Shown here: positions 1,227-14,174 of the stretch, in pieces
How the letters are laid out: every line of letters begins with the position of its first letter
Position numbering within the stretch: the first letter of the stretch is position 1
Assembly (NCBI GenBank): GCA_028874195.1
Contig: JAPPLM010000054.1
Span: 62,001 to 126,000, forward strand
From: Chloroflexota bacterium
Lineage (GTDB): Bacteria; Chloroflexota; UBA11872; VXOZ01
Length of the DNA stretch: 64,000 nucleotides
Reading direction: 5' to 3'
Translations under genes and position numbers: made by a program
The notes under the pieces: generated by a model
The model's input: only the letters and a program-made list of their open reading frames with translations
What the model was told of the DNA's origin: nothing
Databases searched by the model: none

Positions 1227-1403
1227 TTCGGTCAGGGAACTATATGCTTAGCTAGCCAGCAGCACGTAGATATTGGGTCTATGTAAGTCATCTGGTTTGC
1301 AATACAGTTTGCATTCAGGCAAGCGGGTGATTTGCCTATTGGACCTAATAGAGACACCGCAGCCGAGTATGCTTTAGGAGTTGCCCATCGTGGCAGCAGC
1401 CCA

Positions 1404-2507
1404 ATGACTGCTAACGACGTTCGCGGCATCGTTCTTTCTTGGATACACGCCAACATTCCGGAGGTCAGCCTTGGCCTCCCCGAATTTGACGACCGGCTTG
1501 ACCAGTGGCGCATTGCTCTTCTTGCACCACATAACGGCAGAGACCCTGTTGGTGAGGTTCGCGTAGCAAATGGTCAAGTTGTGTTCTCAACGGATTTGGA
1601 TCTGGCCAAAGAGCGCTGCCGTCAACACTTGCCAGCCGAACTTGAAGCTCGGACAAAGCACCCGATCACCTTTCGTCCCATCCCATCCCGGATAGTGCTT
1701 GGGGATGCATCCGAAGCACTTGCGGACTACCCCCCAGGGACAGTGCAGTTGGTTTTCACCTCCCCGCCATACTTCAATGCCAAGCCGGAATATCACGAGA
1801 GCGCGGGCTATGGCGACTATCTTGACCTGCTTCGTGACATATTCTCCAAGTGCCACGACATGCTGTCAGAAGGACGGTTCTTAGTCGTAAACACAAGCCC
1901 TATACTTATTCGCCGGGCACATAGGAGCACCTCGAGTCGACGCTTGCCAATAACCTTTGACCTCCATGCCGTACTTGATGAATTAGGGTTTGAGTTCATT
2001 GACGACATAATCTGGCAAAAGCCTGAGGGTGCAGGCTGGCATTTGGGGAGAGGCCGCAGGTTTGCCGCAGACCGCCAGCCCTTGCAGTACAAGCCAGTTA
2101 CGGTTACAGAAAATGTGGTTGTATACCGCAAGCGAACAGACAAGCTAATTGACTGGAATCTACGCAACCACCCTGATCCAGATGCGATTCGGGCGTCCCT
2201 AATTGAGGATGGATACGAAAGAACCAATGTCTGGCAGCTTCAACCCGCACATCATAGGCAGCATCCCGCAGTTTTTCCCGAATCCTTAGCCGAAAGAGTA
2301 ATCCGCTACTACTCATTCATAGGGGATATGGTACTTGACCCATTTGCCGGAGTTGGCACAACAGGGCGCGTTGCTGGGCGACTAGGAAGGCGCTTCTTCA
2401 TGGTTGAGAAGAGTCTTGACTACTTTGAGCTTCAATGCATGGACATAGACATTCAGAGGTTCTTCCCCGACATACTAGACTTCGAGTTCTTCGCCGGATC
2501 GAGCTAG
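1404..2507 (+). CDS. Beta-class DNA methyltransferase (N4-cytosine or N6-adenine)
   Basis: A SAM-dependent DNA amino-methyltransferase of 367 residues from the ATG at 1404. Catalytic motif IV TSPPY is at about 119-123. SAM-binding motif I DPFAGVGTTG lies near the C-terminus (about 312-321). This IV-before-I order defines the beta class, and TSPPY is common in N4-cytosine enzymes. A possible recognition region lies between the motifs. The start is uncertain: an in-frame TTG at 1332 would add 24 residues and neither start has a good ribosome binding site. The next gene starts six bases after the stop, so this looks like the modification half of a type II restriction-modification operon. Its base composition is less GC-rich than its neighbours, which suggests transfer. 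Confidence 0.85.
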   Translation: MTANDVRGIVLSWIHANIPEVSLGLPEFDDRLDQWRIALLAPHNGRDPVGEVRVANGQVVFSTDLDLAKERCRQHLPAELEARTKHPITFRPIPSRIVLGDASEALADYPPGTVQLVFTSPPYFNAKPEYHESAGYGDYLDLLRDIFSKCHDMLSEGRFLVVNTSPILIRRAHRSTSSRRLPITFDLHAVLDELGFEFIDDIIWQKPEGAGWHLGRGRRFAADRQPLQYKPVTVTENVVVYRKRTDKLIDWNLRNHPDPDAIRASLIEDGYERTNVWQLQPAHHRQHPAVFPESLAERVIRYYSFIGDMVLDPFAGVGTTGRVAGRLGRRFFMVEKSLDYFELQCMDIDIQRFFPDILDFEFFAGSS

Positions 2508-2513
2508 TTAGCC

Positions 2514-3407
2514 ATGTCAAATAAACCGACTTGGGTTGACCCTTTCTCACCTCTTGGCACAAGAGAGGCAACTGCCAAGATTCTTACTGGCAGAAACTAG
2601 CGTCTATTCTATGAAGACGCAACCCGGAAAACTCTCATCGCAACTTACCAAGACCTAGCAAAACTGGCGCGTCTTCATCCACAGGATGATGCTACATGGA
2701 AGGCACACGTCCAAGAACTGATATCCACGAACAGCCTAGAAGATCGGCGGATGCGATTGTGGCTTATCGGTCTCACTAAGAAAACGGCCACTAACCTCGG
2801 CATCAGGGTGTCAGATTACCCGTCTGTTTTCAATGACGTTATGGCTGACATCGAGAGTGTTACTGCGGACGGCCAAGAGCGTCGCGAATTGGCGTTGCTG
2901 CTTTGGTGTGGCACAGCCACCTTGACCATACGAGGCTCGCAGAAGTCAAAGATTGGAAAGTCTTTAGAAGTGTCAATCGCACGAGCCGCGCTTACCTGTA
3001 TTGGCTTGAGGGAAGAGCGCGGTGACTTTCGTCTCAATGTCGAGGCGGATGAGGAAGTTGCACGGGAGACGGATGCGGAGGTTAAAACGCCACGGGGGTT
3101 TGTGCGAGTTGAGGTTGGGCTAATCGGAGTGGGCAACTCTGAGGTGATAGGTGACAAGGTAGGGCGCATGGATCGTAACGGCATCATCCTTATGGACATG
3201 ATTCCGGCAAAGAGCACTGCCTATAGGACAGCAGAGATTCGGGGTGTCCGATTAATTCAACTACGCAACAACCACTCCGTTGAAGAAGTTAGACAACACC
3301 TGTCCGGTTTACATGTGCCAGTGCAAGAAGAACCAATTGCACCAGCTCAAGTGGAACAACGAGTCTTAGACATGCCACTATCTGCATTCAAACGTGGAGA
3401 TTTGTAG
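2514..3407 (+). pseudogene. Probable partner restriction endonuclease, interrupted by TAG at codon 29
   Basis: From the ATG at 2514 the frame reads MSNKPTWVDPFSPLGTREAT up to a TAG at 2598-2600, then continues open without shift to 3407 (297 codons in all). The context AAC-TAG-CGT is explained by one C-to-T change of a CAG glutamine codon. The segment with DAEVKTPRGFVRVEVGLIG and GDKVGR (about codons 190-220) has acidic and lysine residues like a PD-(D/E)XK nuclease core, but I could not assign a family. Position directly after the methyltransferase supports a restriction role. The part after the stop could restart at the ATG at 2751 (218 aa) but would lack the N-terminus. Confidence 0.6.
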
Positions 3408-6055: not shown

Positions 6056-6086
6056 GAAGATGGATTCCCGCTTTCGCGGGAATGAC
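6056..6086. repeat. Dispersed palindromic repeat, GGATTCCCGC...GCGGGAAT family
   Basis: Inverted repeat ATTCCCGC / GCGGGAAT inside a longer shared unit beginning GAAGATGG and ending TGAC. Related copies are at 11832, 30599, 34843, 34937 and 44696. The ATTCCC-N8-GGGAAT core resembles the dRS3 type known from other bacteria. Confidence 0.75.
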
Positions 6087-9873: not shown

Positions 9874-9897
9874 GCGGGGGACAAGCCCCCGCGCTAC
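9874..9897. repeat. 24-bp dispersed palindromic repeat (GCGGGGG-ACA family), copy 1
   Basis: Stem GCGGGGG / CCCCCGC around a short loop, with an asymmetric GCTAC end. Identical 24-base units, in either orientation, are at 14000, 45821, 60831 and 62247. Confidence 0.9.
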
Positions 9898-9982
9898 TAA
9901 GTCAGGCAAGGCTTCGCCCGCCGGTTCGACTTGGGCAAGAATAGCCCGCCCGTCCTCACTTGAGTTGGTTGCCTGCCAATGG

Positions 9983-10048
9983 CCTTGCCGTTCGTACTGA
10001 GCTTGCCTGTCCTGAGCTTGTCGAAGGGTCGAAGTATGAACGGCAAGG
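9983..10048. repeat. Imperfect inverted repeat containing CCTGAGCTTGTCGAAGG
   Basis: Arms 9983-9998 and 10033-10048 are complementary at 15 of 16 positions around a core with two GAGCTTG units. Related cores are at 14137, 21581 and 59742. Confidence 0.75.
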
Positions 10049-10077: not shown

Positions 10078-11586
10078 TCAGTTTTCCGCCTCTTCCTCGA
10101 AGATGTCTGGAATGCTCTCCCCAAAGCGCTGCGCTTCGTCGTCGTAGGTGGCAAAGGGGTTTGGCATTTCCAGCACCCGGCCGTGGACGGCGATGGCTTT
10201 CCAGTCCAGCACGTAGGGTATGACATCCCAGCTACCGTTAGCGGCCACGTCCTGCCAGTCGTCCACGTAGTCATACGCCAGAAAGAAGTAGCGGCGGTCC
10301 CACATGAGATTCTCCAGATTTGATCGCAGGTCTTGCCAGGGAATGGCCGTATCCGCACCGGCGGCGGCCAGCGCGCGGAGCACCTGGCTGCGCCCGTGCG
10401 CGCGGGTATCGGGCGGCGCCTGCGTGGCGGCAGTGAAAACGGTGTCGCTATCCGCCCAGTAGAGATTGCGGTGCCGTTTTGCCAGCACGTCGAAGAGGCT
10501 GATCGATGGATCTATTTGGTGATAGGAGAGATCGAGCTTTATCAGATCCGGATCGGTCCACGCCTGATCGGCGCCGGCGTACCGCTTGATCTGCTCATGC
10601 TTCGTTACCCAATCCAAGTACCCGTCCAGACGCGCCGGATCGCTCTCCAGTTGCTCCAGCACCCATTCCCAGTTTTCCAGAGTCCATTCCGTATCCGCGT
10701 CACGCCCGCTAAAGCGGCGCTCGGCTTCGCGGTGGTAGCGGCGCTGCACCTCAATCGCGGGGATATATTCGTCATTTTCCGTCCCAACCGTCCACCTGCC
10801 GCCGGTGGTTGCCGCGATGCGGCGCAAGTCGCGCACGGGATCGGCGAGCGCAAGCTGCGGGCTCCACCCTTGCTCGAGCAGTTGAGCAACCAGCGCGGTC
10901 GTGCCGATCTTGAGCGCCGTAGTATATTCCGACCGGTTCACGTCACCGACAATGACGTGCAAACGGCGGTACTGCCGTTCGGCCAGCGGCTCGTCGCGCA
11001 GATTGATGATGGGCCTGCCGCCGAAGCGCACCCGGTGGCTGACGTCTATGGTCACGAACTGCGCGCGCTGTGAGAGCGCGAAGGCGGCCGGCGTATCGTC
11101 GCCGCGCGGGAGCAGGCAGCCGGCGCCCGTGTAAATCTGGCGGGTGACGAGAAAGGGCAGCATACCGTCCACCAGATGGCTGTCGTAGGGACTCTGCCGG
11201 ATGCAGTAGTTCTCATGGTAGCCAAACGTATGGCCGAAGTAGTCGGTATTGTTCTTGACGAAATAGGCTTGCGACTCTAACTCGGCGTCCTGCACAGCCT
11301 GGTTGACGATGGTCTCGCCGGCGCGCTCATGGGCAACAATGTCCGTGAGCGTGCGGCACTCGGCGGTGGCGTGCTCAAGATGGCCGAGATCCAGGTACAT
11401 GCGCCCGCCGTTGAAGAGAAAGCCGCCGTTGCCCGGCACTTCTCCCCATTCCCGCGGGGGCGGGTCTATGAGACCGTGGCGACACCCGCGAAAGATGGCG
11501 TCCTTTACCAAGAGGGCCGCCCGCACGGGCTGCATATCCCCCACGCAACCGTATTCGATTTCAGTGCCGAAAAGTGCGTCTTCCAT
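10078..11586 (-). CDS. pafA: PafA-like Pup ligase
   Basis: Member of the Dop/PafA carboxylate-amine ligase family. PafA phosphorylates the C-terminal glutamate of Pup with ATP and joins it to substrate lysines. It has 502 residues, about 50 longer than mycobacterial PafA because of an extended C-terminus. Visible: the nucleotide/magnesium motif GTEIEYG (7-13, catalytic-site Glu9), NGGRMYLDLGHLEHATAEC with Asp66 at the position of the catalytic Asp, KNNTDYFG and YHENY, LLPFLVTRQIYTGAG, and INLRDEPLAERQYRRLHVIVGD. There is no Dop-loop insertion, which favours ligase over depupylase. It is on the same strand as, and downstream of, dop and pup, separated by a repeat-rich 549 bases. The final 70 residues (from about 430) are unlike family members I know. 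Confidence 0.85.
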   Translation of the reverse strand: MEDALFGTEIEYGCVGDMQPVRAALLVKDAIFRGCRHGLIDPPPREWGEVPGNGGFLFNGGRMYLDLGHLEHATAECRTLTDIVAHERAGETIVNQAVQDAELESQAYFVKNNTDYFGHTFGYHENYCIRQSPYDSHLVDGMLPFLVTRQIYTGAGCLLPRGDDTPAAFALSQRAQFVTIDVSHRVRFGGRPIINLRDEPLAERQYRRLHVIVGDVNRSEYTTALKIGTTALVAQLLEQGWSPQLALADPVRDLRRIAATTGGRWTVGTENDEYIPAIEVQRRYHREAERRFSGRDADTEWTLENWEWVLEQLESDPARLDGYLDWVTKHEQIKRYAGADQAWTDPDLIKLDLSYHQIDPSISLFDVLAKRHRNLYWADSDTVFTAATQAPPDTRAHGRSQVLRALAAAGADTAIPWQDLRSNLENLMWDRRYFFLAYDYVDDWQDVAANGSWDVIPYVLDWKAIAVHGRVLEMPNPFATYDDEAQRFGESIPDIFEEEAEN

Positions 11587-11831
11587 GCCGCAATTCCAAA
11601 AGAATGGTGATAGTCTGCGCCAGCCAGGCGCTTAGGTATCGGAGGCTACGTCAGAGGTAATTACAGTCCCGGCACTCTTATCTAAGGGACGTATCCTTCG
11701 CTATGCTCACATGATAATCGATAGCGCGCGGACCAAAATCTTGGGTATTGATCAGACAGTATCCAAGGCCAGCGCCTCTGCGTTCATCGACCGGCCTGCA
11801 GTTCCTTACTAGGTTGTGTGGTCATTTTGCC

Positions 11832-11862
11832 GTCATTCCCGTGAAAACGGGAATCCATCTTC
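11832..11862. repeat. Dispersed palindromic repeat, GGATTCCCGC...GCGGGAAT family
   Basis: Copy in reverse orientation, with arms ATTCCCGT / ACGGGAAT. It is in the pafA-pup gap, which otherwise holds only the element at 11983 and no convincing gene. Confidence 0.75.
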
Positions 11863-11982
11863 ATCCGAAACCGGATCGTGCTACTACGCGGGGTGGCGAG
11901 CCGCCACATACGCAAGTATCAGATGTGTCAATTGCTTTCCTTGCCACTTTGCTCCGCAAAGTGAGAGACAATCCCGTTCAGT

Positions 11983-12030
11983 CGCTTGAGATTCCGCGAA
12001 CACTGTTCGACGCTTGCGCTCGGAATGACA
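11983..12030. repeat. Dispersed repeat, TGTCATTCCGAGCG family (reverse)
   Basis: Contains GATTCCGCGAACA, then TGTTCGACGC and CTCGGAATGACA, i.e. the complement of the form seen at 30432. Confidence 0.7.
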
Positions 12031-12135
12031 CTGAATGTCCGCAGAGCCTAGAGATTAATTGAAGAATACACCATGCAGTGCACTGCGGGTGACTCCGCCG
12101 CGTGCGTCGATGTTGCCGAATTGCGTGTACTTTGG

Positions 12136-12360
12136 CTATTCGCCACCCGGCTGCGGCGTGGGATCGGGCACCTCGCGGATGATGCGCTTGATCTCTTCGT
12201 CGAGATCGTCGGCTTCAGTCTTGTCCGGGGCCTCCGTGGGCGTCTCCGTCGGCGCTTCGGTTCCCGCTATGATTGAACGACGAGTGCTTGGAATGACTTG
12301 CTTCAATGCTGCACCTGTGGGACTGTCCGTCTGCGATTTCTTCTCAGCATACCACGTCAC
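12136..12360 (-). CDS. pup: Prokaryotic ubiquitin-like protein Pup (Gly-Gly-Glu end)
   Basis: A 74-residue, acidic, apparently disordered protein encoded directly after dop. It starts at a GTG that overlaps the dop stop as GTGA, with GAGGAGG seven to eight bases upstream. The C-terminus is GGE (72-74), the ligation-ready form with Glu encoded in the gene, so deamidation of a terminal Gln by Dop would not be needed. A helix-prone acidic segment DDLDEEIKRIIRE (51-63) precedes it, where mycobacterial Pup has its proteasome-ATPase-binding coiled coil. A short proline-rich spacer PDPTPQP before GGE and the Thr/Pro-rich stretch TEAPTETPTEAPDK (34-47) are unusual. Similarity is by position, size and ends, so identity rests mainly on context. 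Confidence 0.8.
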   Translation of the reverse strand: MTWYAEKKSQTDSPTGAALKQVIPSTRRSIIAGTEAPTETPTEAPDKTEADDLDEEIKRIIREVPDPTPQPGGE

Positions 12361-13871
12361 GCGCCACCTCCTCGTTGCACTGCTTGTGAAAGCTCGTCAA
12401 GGTTCTGACACGCGTCGATCAGTTGCATTTGCCTCTCCACTGTCGTCCCTGACAGTTCGGCAAGTTCGAGCGTAAAGGGCGTCCCGTTATGCTGGAATGT
12501 TACGGAGCCCCACTCCATCTCGGTAATGTGCGGCGCGAACTTCGCCAGGCAGGCGGCACGCACGGCGGCGCGCGTGCCGGTGGGCGCGGTAGTCTCTGCG
12601 CGTTCGATGGCTTCATCTGTGACGAAACGCCGCATGCGACCGCTGCGAACCAGCATCTGATAGAGACTTACAGCGGGGTCCACCATGTGGTAGGCAAGGT
12701 CTAGCCGCAGCACCGCCGGGTCGTTCCAATCTACGCTTGAGTCACCGCTGATTTGGGCGAAGAGCGCCAGCTTTGCCACCCAATCCAGGCGGTCACGCAG
12801 CTTCGTAACGTCCGAGTCGAGCAGGTCGAGCACAGTGTCCCACTCGTCCAGCACCCAGTCGGTCTCCGTGTCGCGGCCGCGGTAGCGCTGTGCCGCCTCC
12901 CAATACCGGCGCTGAACGTCAACGGCGCGTATCGTGCTGCCGTCAGCCAAAGCGATTGGCTGGGATAGCTTGAGGTCGCGGGAGATTGTCTGCAGGGCGT
13001 GCACAGGATGCCGCAGCCGCACCACCGGCACGGCGCGGTCCTCGACCAAGTCGAGCATCAAGGCCATGGTACCGACACGTAGGGCCGTGGCGTACTCGGA
13101 ACAGTTAGCATCGCCGATGATGACGTGCAGACGCCGGTATTTCTGCGGATTGGCGTGCGGTTCATCGCGCGTATTGAAGAGCGGACGCTGCGTGGTGGTA
13201 TTGATGCCCACTTCCGTTTCAAAGAAATCCGCGCGCTGGCTGATCTGAAAGCCGCCGGTACGGCTCGTTGCCGTCTCGTAGGCTGCTTTGCCTGCGCCGG
13301 CGTAGATCTGACGGGTAACGAAAAAGGGGATACAGGCCGCAGTCAGGTCGTTCAGCGGCACGGCGCGGCTCACGAGATAGTTCTCATGGCAACCGTAGCT
13401 GCGCCCGTGATAATCGGAGTTATTCTTGACCAATTGCACGTGGGTTGCCTGGCCGACGGCGGCATTCCGCGCCTGCTGCGCGCGAAACACAACCCGCTCG
13501 CCCGCTTTGTCATGCGCCACAAGGTCGTGGAGCGAAAGACACGCGTCGGTGCAGTATTCGGGATGATTGTGGTCGTTGTAGAGACGGGCGCCGTTGGCAA
13601 GCACGGTATCGGCGAGCAACTCCTCTCTGGAGAGATGCCTGCTCTTGGTGGTGTTGCCGCGCAGGTCGTGCGGGTCTTGATCCAAGCGCTTGACCCGCTT
13701 GCCGCGCAGGTCGACACGAGGGCTTTCCGCCGAATAGTCCCAGCCGCGAAAGCAGCCCGCCAAGGGAGCGCTGCGCACGAGCATGGCCGCCTCGTAGGCA
13801 AAGTCCACGTCCTGCGCTCCACTAGCGCAGAGCATGCCATATTCAGTCTCAATCCCTACCGGGCGATTCAT
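12357..13871 (-). CDS. dop: Dop: Pup deamidase/depupylase
   Basis: Hydrolyses the isopeptide bond between Pup and substrates, and in other species deamidates Pup-Gln to Pup-Glu. It has 504 residues from the ATG at 13871. Visible: GIETEYG (6-12), a Dop-type insertion between about 50 and 90 (ESPRVDLRGK...), NGARLYNDHNHPEY with Asp100 at the catalytic position, LVKNNSDYHG, GCHENYL, FFVTRQIYAGAGK and NTRDEPHANPQKYRRLHVIIGDAN. The C-terminal WGSVTFQHNG region parallels actinobacterial Dop. It overlaps pup by four bases, the dop-pup order known in actinobacteria. No prcA, prcB or Mpa/ARC ATPase lies on either side in the window. Confidence 0.92.
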   Translation of the reverse strand: MNRPVGIETEYGMLCASGAQDVDFAYEAAMLVRSAPLAGCFRGWDYSAESPRVDLRGKRVKRLDQDPHDLRGNTTKSRHLSREELLADTVLANGARLYNDHNHPEYCTDACLSLHDLVAHDKAGERVVFRAQQARNAAVGQATHVQLVKNNSDYHGRSYGCHENYLVSRAVPLNDLTAACIPFFVTRQIYAGAGKAAYETATSRTGGFQISQRADFFETEVGINTTTQRPLFNTRDEPHANPQKYRRLHVIIGDANCSEYATALRVGTMALMLDLVEDRAVPVVRLRHPVHALQTISRDLKLSQPIALADGSTIRAVDVQRRYWEAAQRYRGRDTETDWVLDEWDTVLDLLDSDVTKLRDRLDWVAKLALFAQISGDSSVDWNDPAVLRLDLAYHMVDPAVSLYQMLVRSGRMRRFVTDEAIERAETTAPTGTRAAVRAACLAKFAPHITEMEWGSVTFQHNGTPFTLELAELSGTTVERQMQLIDACQNLDELSQAVQRGGGA

Positions 13872-13999
13872 GGGGGTTTTCCTGCCTTTGCGACTGTGGC
13901 ATCTAGTATAGCAAGCGGCAGCGCGAGGAGAGGCAATAGCCGCGGGACCGTTCTGCGTCGGGAGTCCTTGCCTACTGTTGTAAGGGCGAGGCTCTTGAA

Positions 14000-14023
14000 G
14001 TAGCGCGGGGGCTTGTCCCCCGC
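14000..14023. repeat. 24-bp dispersed palindromic repeat, copy 2
   Basis: Same 24-base unit as at 9874, here beginning GTAGCGCGGGGGC. It is in the 496-base gap upstream of dop, which also holds the elements at 14103 and 14137. Confidence 0.9.
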
Positions 14024-14136: not shown

Positions 14137-14174
14137 GTGCCGTGAGCCTGTCCTGAGCTTGTCGAAGGGCGCCA
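14137..14174. repeat. CCTGAGCTTGTCGAAGG-type repeat
   Basis: Contains TGTCCTGAGCTTGTCGAAGG, shared with 10008-10027, flanked by GGTGCC and GGCGCC arms. Confidence 0.7.

Follow-up and report, generated by a model that had tools for sequence, protein, structure and literature searches.

Pup and UBact are generally regarded as arms of the bacterial proteasome. In the characterized enzymes, PafA phosphorylates the C-terminal Glu of the tag and joins it to a lysine, and Dop deamidates GGQ and removes the tag (PMC2588565, PMC7947786). Nitrospirota are among the Gram-negative phyla for which the UBact conjugation-proteasome system has been reported (Lehmann et al. 2017, as cited in PMC12751074). In Corynebacterium glutamicum, the well-studied exception, a non-degradative role of pupylation is known, and ARC is kept and disassembles tagged ferritin (PMC12288473). 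Pup-PafA neighborhoods without linked proteasome genes have been described in Plesiocystis and Rhodopirellula (Iyer et al. 2008, PMC2588565), the related enzyme of Planctomycetes being a single-copy Dop/PafA homolog (PMC7947786).

The locus described here lies in a stretch of 64,000 nucleotides (the window) from the Chloroflexota genome G000, which we place in the uncultured class-level lineage UBA2235/UBA11872 (PMC10608941), hereafter the class; sponge-associated members of the UBA2235 Chloroflexota have been reported (PMC8163846). The minus strand of the window carries, from position 13871 to 10078, the genes for a Dop homolog, a small tag, and a PafA-like ligase, in this order. We consider it fairly probable that they form a module for reversible protein tagging, akin to Pup and UBact, that operates with neither a proteasome nor ARC/Mpa and is most likely non-degradative.

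The cassette and its distribution

The elements of the cassette are as follows:

12357..13871, minus strand: dop, 504 residues, predicted Dop-type deamidase/depupylase homolog (PF03136, TIGR03688, alignment to 5lrt)
12367..12373, minus strand: ribosome-binding site GAGGAGG of the tag gene, within the 3' end of dop, as read from the sequence
12357-12360, minus strand: GTGA overlap of the dop stop and the tag start, likewise read directly
12136..12360, minus strand: tag gene, 74 residues, GTG start, Pup/UBact-like by position, size, and end
12139..12186, minus strand: C-terminal end RIIREVPDPTPQPGGE by which the tag would be conjugated, 16 codons, near-invariant in the alignment
11587..12135, no strand: spacer between the tag gene and pafA, with a copy of a palindromic intergenic repeat at 11835-11856
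10078..11586, minus strand: gene of the PafA-like ligase, 502 residues, UBact-type (PF03136, TIGR03686, AlphaFold model, tree)

The coordinates that the initial annotation had given for the gene set are correct, and the coupling of a small GGE-ended protein to dop is evident from the GTGA overlap and a ribosome-binding site of its own. A GGAGG motif together with a GTG or ATG tag start is kept in 6/6 genomes of the window's genus. Unlike the tag gene with its coupling to dop, the pafA-like gene stands apart, starting 549 nt beyond the tag gene; this spacer is much shorter in most other class genomes.

The class was sampled with 41 genomes (that of the window and 40 relatives), 24 of them with a completeness of 90% or more and a contamination of 5% or less and one a single contig (G019, 3.0 Mb), together with 359 other Chloroflexota. 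The Dop/PafA pair is present in 39 of the 41 and in none of the 359 others; the class genomes without it are G020 (1.9 Mb, 93% completeness) and G007 (76%). In the class tree, each taxonomic family contributes a single clade of enzymes, so that inheritance of the cassette follows the families of the class and descent within it looks vertical. A scan of GTDB 220, with one genome per species and class-specific PafA motifs, returned 36 loci, which comprise 34 from Chloroflexota, one from Nitrospira, and one from Woesearchaeota. A Woesearchaeota contig (L116:5455-7044) has a single gene for a PafA/Dop-like protein, which shares 28% identity with the window PafA in tblastn, and the same genome also has proteasome-family matches. 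A phage or viral origin was considered as well and rejected, as none of the 45 pattern matches among viral contigs was confirmed.

Tag and enzymes compared with Pup and UBact

The tag of the window ends in PDPTPQPGGE, with an N-terminal part rich in Pro, Thr, and Glu and a short likely helix. The ending RIIREIPDPTPQPGG[E/Q] is near-invariant in the class alignment, and open reading frames ending in PQPGG[E/Q] stand beside Dop at 38 of the 39 loci. Of the 39 class genomes with the enzyme pair, 38 have the tag between the two enzyme genes, far above chance; the sole exception is G009, where the end of dop has undetermined residues. A whole-genome profile search detected a single strong tag copy in 38 of the 41 class genomes, invariably at this site, and no convincing further copies elsewhere in them. 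The last residue is either Glu or Gln depending on the species and has changed three or more times along the class tree, and the catalytic Asp of Dop is kept in both GGE and GGQ species. Within the genus, the ratio of nonsynonymous to synonymous substitution rates (dN/dS) is 0-0.02 for the last 28 codons and 0.1-0.4 for the whole tag; the C terminus is, by this measure, under very strong purifying selection.

The tag had been labeled pup in the initial annotation, yet it is not a recognizable Pup. The Pup models PF05639 and TIGR03687 do not match the class tag, while known Pup controls score 64-106 bits, and the UBact models PF20513 and NF033388 also give no match, with Nitrospirota UBact controls scoring 71-80 bits. 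Neither Pfam, NCBIfam, nor profile-profile comparison gave a significant assignment; Pup and UBact likewise fail to match each other. A small G[E/Q]-ended tag adjoining a Dop/PafA gene, the mark of a Pup system, is nevertheless found at 38 of the 39 loci. Judged by its sequence, the class tag is a third tag type, distinct from both Pup and UBact.

Both enzymes of the window belong to the Pup_ligase family PF03136 (E 6.5e-154 for Dop and 2.4e-110 for the PafA-like protein), with the full-length match, GhExE motif, and catalytic Asp that characterize it. Among the NCBIfam models, TIGR03688 (Dop) ranks best for Dop with 438 bits, below the equivalog cut-off of 492, and TIGR03686 (PafA) for the PafA-like protein with 300 bits, below the cut-off of 551; by these models, both are relatives rather than equivalogs. 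Dop aligns end to end with the solved Dop structure 5lrt (E 2.2e-107). It carries a GIETE metal/ATP motif, and Asp100 aligns to the catalytic Asp of known Dop, with a Dop-loop region present in the class enzymes between the first strand and this residue. The PafA-like protein has a GTEIE motif, and its Asp66 aligns with Asp64, the catalytic residue of PafA in C. glutamicum. The best matches of its AlphaFold model (pLDDT 84) in the PDB are the PafA-Pup complex 4bjr and Dop 7oxy (TM ~0.76). The catalytic Glu and Asp residues noted in both enzymes by the initial annotation are indeed retained throughout the class; in Dop, residues E8, E10, D100, and H162 are invariant across the 39 genomes, apart from gaps or one masked X. 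Within the window's genus, dN/dS is 0.07-0.12 for Dop and 0.03-0.11 for PafA. One class genome contains a third, stand-alone PF03136 protein (L050:9153-10613, G030:C77). It sits close to the class PafA in the tree, on a long branch, and the search beside it gave no convincing tag gene.

In an unrooted maximum-likelihood tree of Dop and PafA, which samples actinobacteria sparsely, lacks Verrucomicrobia and Armatimonadota, and places two single-copy relatives on long branches, the class PafA groups with UBact-type PafA (support 100/99, starred) and the class Dop with UBact-type Dop (90/87, not starred). The actinobacterial and Pup-type enzymes form separate sets. Transfer from actinobacteria, which the initial annotation had raised, is rejected, the enzymes grouping instead with the UBact-type of Nitrospirota. 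Loci of the latter phylum have the order ARC-Dop-tag-PrcB-PrcA-PafA and tags of two types, Pup (..YVQKGGE) and UBact (..YRQRTGE), and several of its genomes have four PF03136 genes, arranged as one Pup-kind and one UBact-kind locus. One Nitrospira has an extra methyltransferase-like open reading frame between dop and the UBact gene of a dop-UBact-prcBA-pafA operon (L114:2862-3629).

The class thus resembles the UBact system in the branch on which its enzymes lie, in a tag gene placed directly after dop, and in a small G[E/Q]-ended tag. It differs in that arc, prcB, and prcA are not found in the locus, the genome, or the class, and in a tag that ends in PDPTPQPGG[E/Q] instead of YRQRTG[E/Q] and is unmatched by PF20513 and NF033388. 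With the actinobacterial Pup-proteasome system it has in common the enzyme family, the fold, the catalytic residues, and the Dop-loop region, although its enzymes fall outside the actinobacterial and Pup-type clades, its tag is unmatched by Pup models, and a proteasome and ARC are missing. Like Plesiocystis and Rhodopirellula, it combines Pup-like and PafA-like genes with no linked proteasome genes; unlike the single-copy relative of Planctomycetes, it has two separate enzymes, class-wide. In terms of gene content and sequence type, the class operon corresponds to the Nitrospirota operon minus arc, prcB, and prcA, with UBact-type enzymes and a tag of the third type. The tree, being unrooted, is compatible both with a loss of these genes and with their never having been part of the operon; the module could even represent a state preceding the junction to the proteasome, rather than a loss.

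Proteasome search, mode of action, and alternatives

No prcA, prcB, HslV, or ARC gene was detected beside the locus, as the initial annotation had seen for prcA, prcB, and Mpa/ARC, or elsewhere in the window's genome. PF00227, which describes 20S subunits and also covers HslV, has no match in this genome and only three weak, unlinked matches among the 41 class genomes. Two genomes of family f2 have a 247-residue open reading frame with weak matches to it (41 and 38 bits), and the one tested matched no NCBIfam model at 1e-10. PF16450, the ARC OB domain, gives only two marginal 22-bit matches among the class genomes, and the matches of TIGR03689 (ARC) in the window's genome are all to other AAA+ proteins, with FtsH highest at 147 bits. 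The single-contig genome contains the cassette and no match for proteasome or ARC. As positive controls, PF00227 detects the proteasome subunits of Nitrospira, and PF16450 detects ARC in 6/6 Nitrospirota and in C. glutamicum. Neither the genome nor its 40 relatives have a convincing homolog of the 20S proteasome, HslV, or ARC/Mpa, and, within the reach of sequence models, this excludes the distant proteasome operon that the initial annotation had allowed for. Its description of a complete pupylation set without a proteasome therefore stands for the Dop, tag, and PafA set lacking proteasome and ARC, and fails in that the tag is not Pup and the enzymes are UBact-type. Similarly, its comparison with corynebacteria is apt for conjugation and removal enzymes without a 20S core, but C. 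glutamicum has ARC (PMC12288473), which the class does not. An IteA-like stand-alone AAA ATPase (G000:C63:49740-50504, L134), possibly part of an anti-phage system, was considered as an IetA/IteA-like substitute for ARC and set aside, with strong matches in only 5-6 of the 41 class genomes.

By analogy with the characterized enzymes, the class PafA would activate the C-terminal Glu of the tag with ATP and link it to substrate lysines, and the class Dop would deamidate GGQ tags in those species that have them and take the tag off again. Because there is no proteasome and no ARC, a non-degradative effect or a reader of another kind is most likely. With less certainty, the tag might alter the modified protein in its activity, its partners, or its assembly instead of leading to proteasomal degradation, a change that Dop would reverse. 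A hypothetical reader may recognize the conserved N-terminal EAPTKPAETPTE-like stretch rich in Pro, Thr, and Glu, which is a candidate recognition element. The strong constraint on Dop in GGE species suggests that removal of the tag matters, and at least three switches between GGE and GGQ with Dop intact are expected if it serves removal as well as deamidation.

Several points weigh against this interpretation, for which all the evidence comes from sequences and models. Conjugation is argued from the characterized families, and sequence cannot demonstrate that the tag is homologous to Pup or UBact, the assignment being based on position, size, the GG[E/Q] end, and the cognate enzymes. Nearly all class genomes are metagenome-assembled, and profile searches might overlook a highly diverged proteasome or ARC. 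FtsH, Clp-type ATPases, and Lon-like proteins, the last recognized by eye only among the open reading frames of the genome, could take up tagged proteins.

The last point leads to the main alternative, which we regard as possible and clearly the less probable: the tag would still be a degradation signal, and tagged proteins would go to an ordinary AAA+ protease (ClpCP, ClpXP, Lon, FtsH) that replaces ARC and the proteasome. FtsH-family and Clp-type AAA+ proteins are encoded in the genome, and the Pro/Thr/Glu-rich, probably disordered end of the tag could initiate threading. The open reading frame 24-1226, the ClpC that the initial annotation had placed at the start of the window, encodes the C-terminal part of a ClpC-type ATPase; in the window's genus the ClpC gene is ~9 kb from pafA, and in family f3 a different Clp-type ATPase is ~5 kb from dop. 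However, these two ATPases share only ~45% identity, and one stands on either side of the cassette. The ClpC of family f1 belongs to the housekeeping block clpC-radA-isp-cysS, which adjoins the cassette in the window's genus only, and in families f2, f4, and f5 the stretches read contain no ClpC. With no neighboring gene conserved class-wide, the connection to ClpC that had been offered as speculation is not supported, and ClpC as a linked protease is rejected.

It is unlikely that the enzymes and the tag serve a purpose other than protein tagging, such as the modification of a small molecule or of one dedicated partner, with only a superficial likeness to pupylation. The glutamine synthetase fold at large includes amino-acid ligases, structure comparison shows a weaker resemblance of the class PafA to YbdK-type carboxylate-amine ligases, and single-copy PafA/Dop relatives exist in Planctomycetes (PMC7947786). 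Yet the two enzymes match PafA and Dop separately, a small GG[E/Q]-ended protein is fixed between them, and Dop retains both its loop region and its Asp. That a proteasome and ARC are present and were overlooked through assembly gaps or extreme divergence is highly improbable: most genomes are incomplete drafts and two of family f2 have the weak PF00227 reading frame, but such matches occur in just three of 41 genomes, and neither the 24 genomes of high completeness and low contamination nor the single contig gave a convincing match with models that detect the controls.

For the proteasome-independent tagging module, we lean, if only slightly, toward the wider claim that it represents a third prokaryotic ubiquitin-like tag type with its own ligase/hydrolase pair, reversible and independent of proteasome and ARC throughout the whole class. 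A cassette for conjugation and removal, retained across a class in which both are missing, is a natural experiment separating modification from degradation, in which the role of tagging alone becomes a testable question. A third sequence-distinct tag with two cognate enzymes also helps in learning which tag features the enzymes read.

Flanking genes and repeats

Between clpC and radA, the window contains an N4/N6 DNA methylase and a CfrBI-type restriction endonuclease (1332-3407), a pair not detected at this site in the remaining genomes of the genus. On both sides of the cassette are the copies of an exact direct repeat of 24 nt (10005-10028 and 14146-14169) and of an exact inverted repeat of 25 nt (9874-9898 and 13999-14023). 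As the five congeners lack the 19-nt core of the direct repeat at this locus, these are probably intergenic repeat elements rather than ends of the cassette. A palindromic ATTCCCGCGAAAGCGGGAATCC-like intergenic element is present in six copies in the window (at 6062, 11835, 30607, 34848, 34940, and 44699), with 0 expected by chance.

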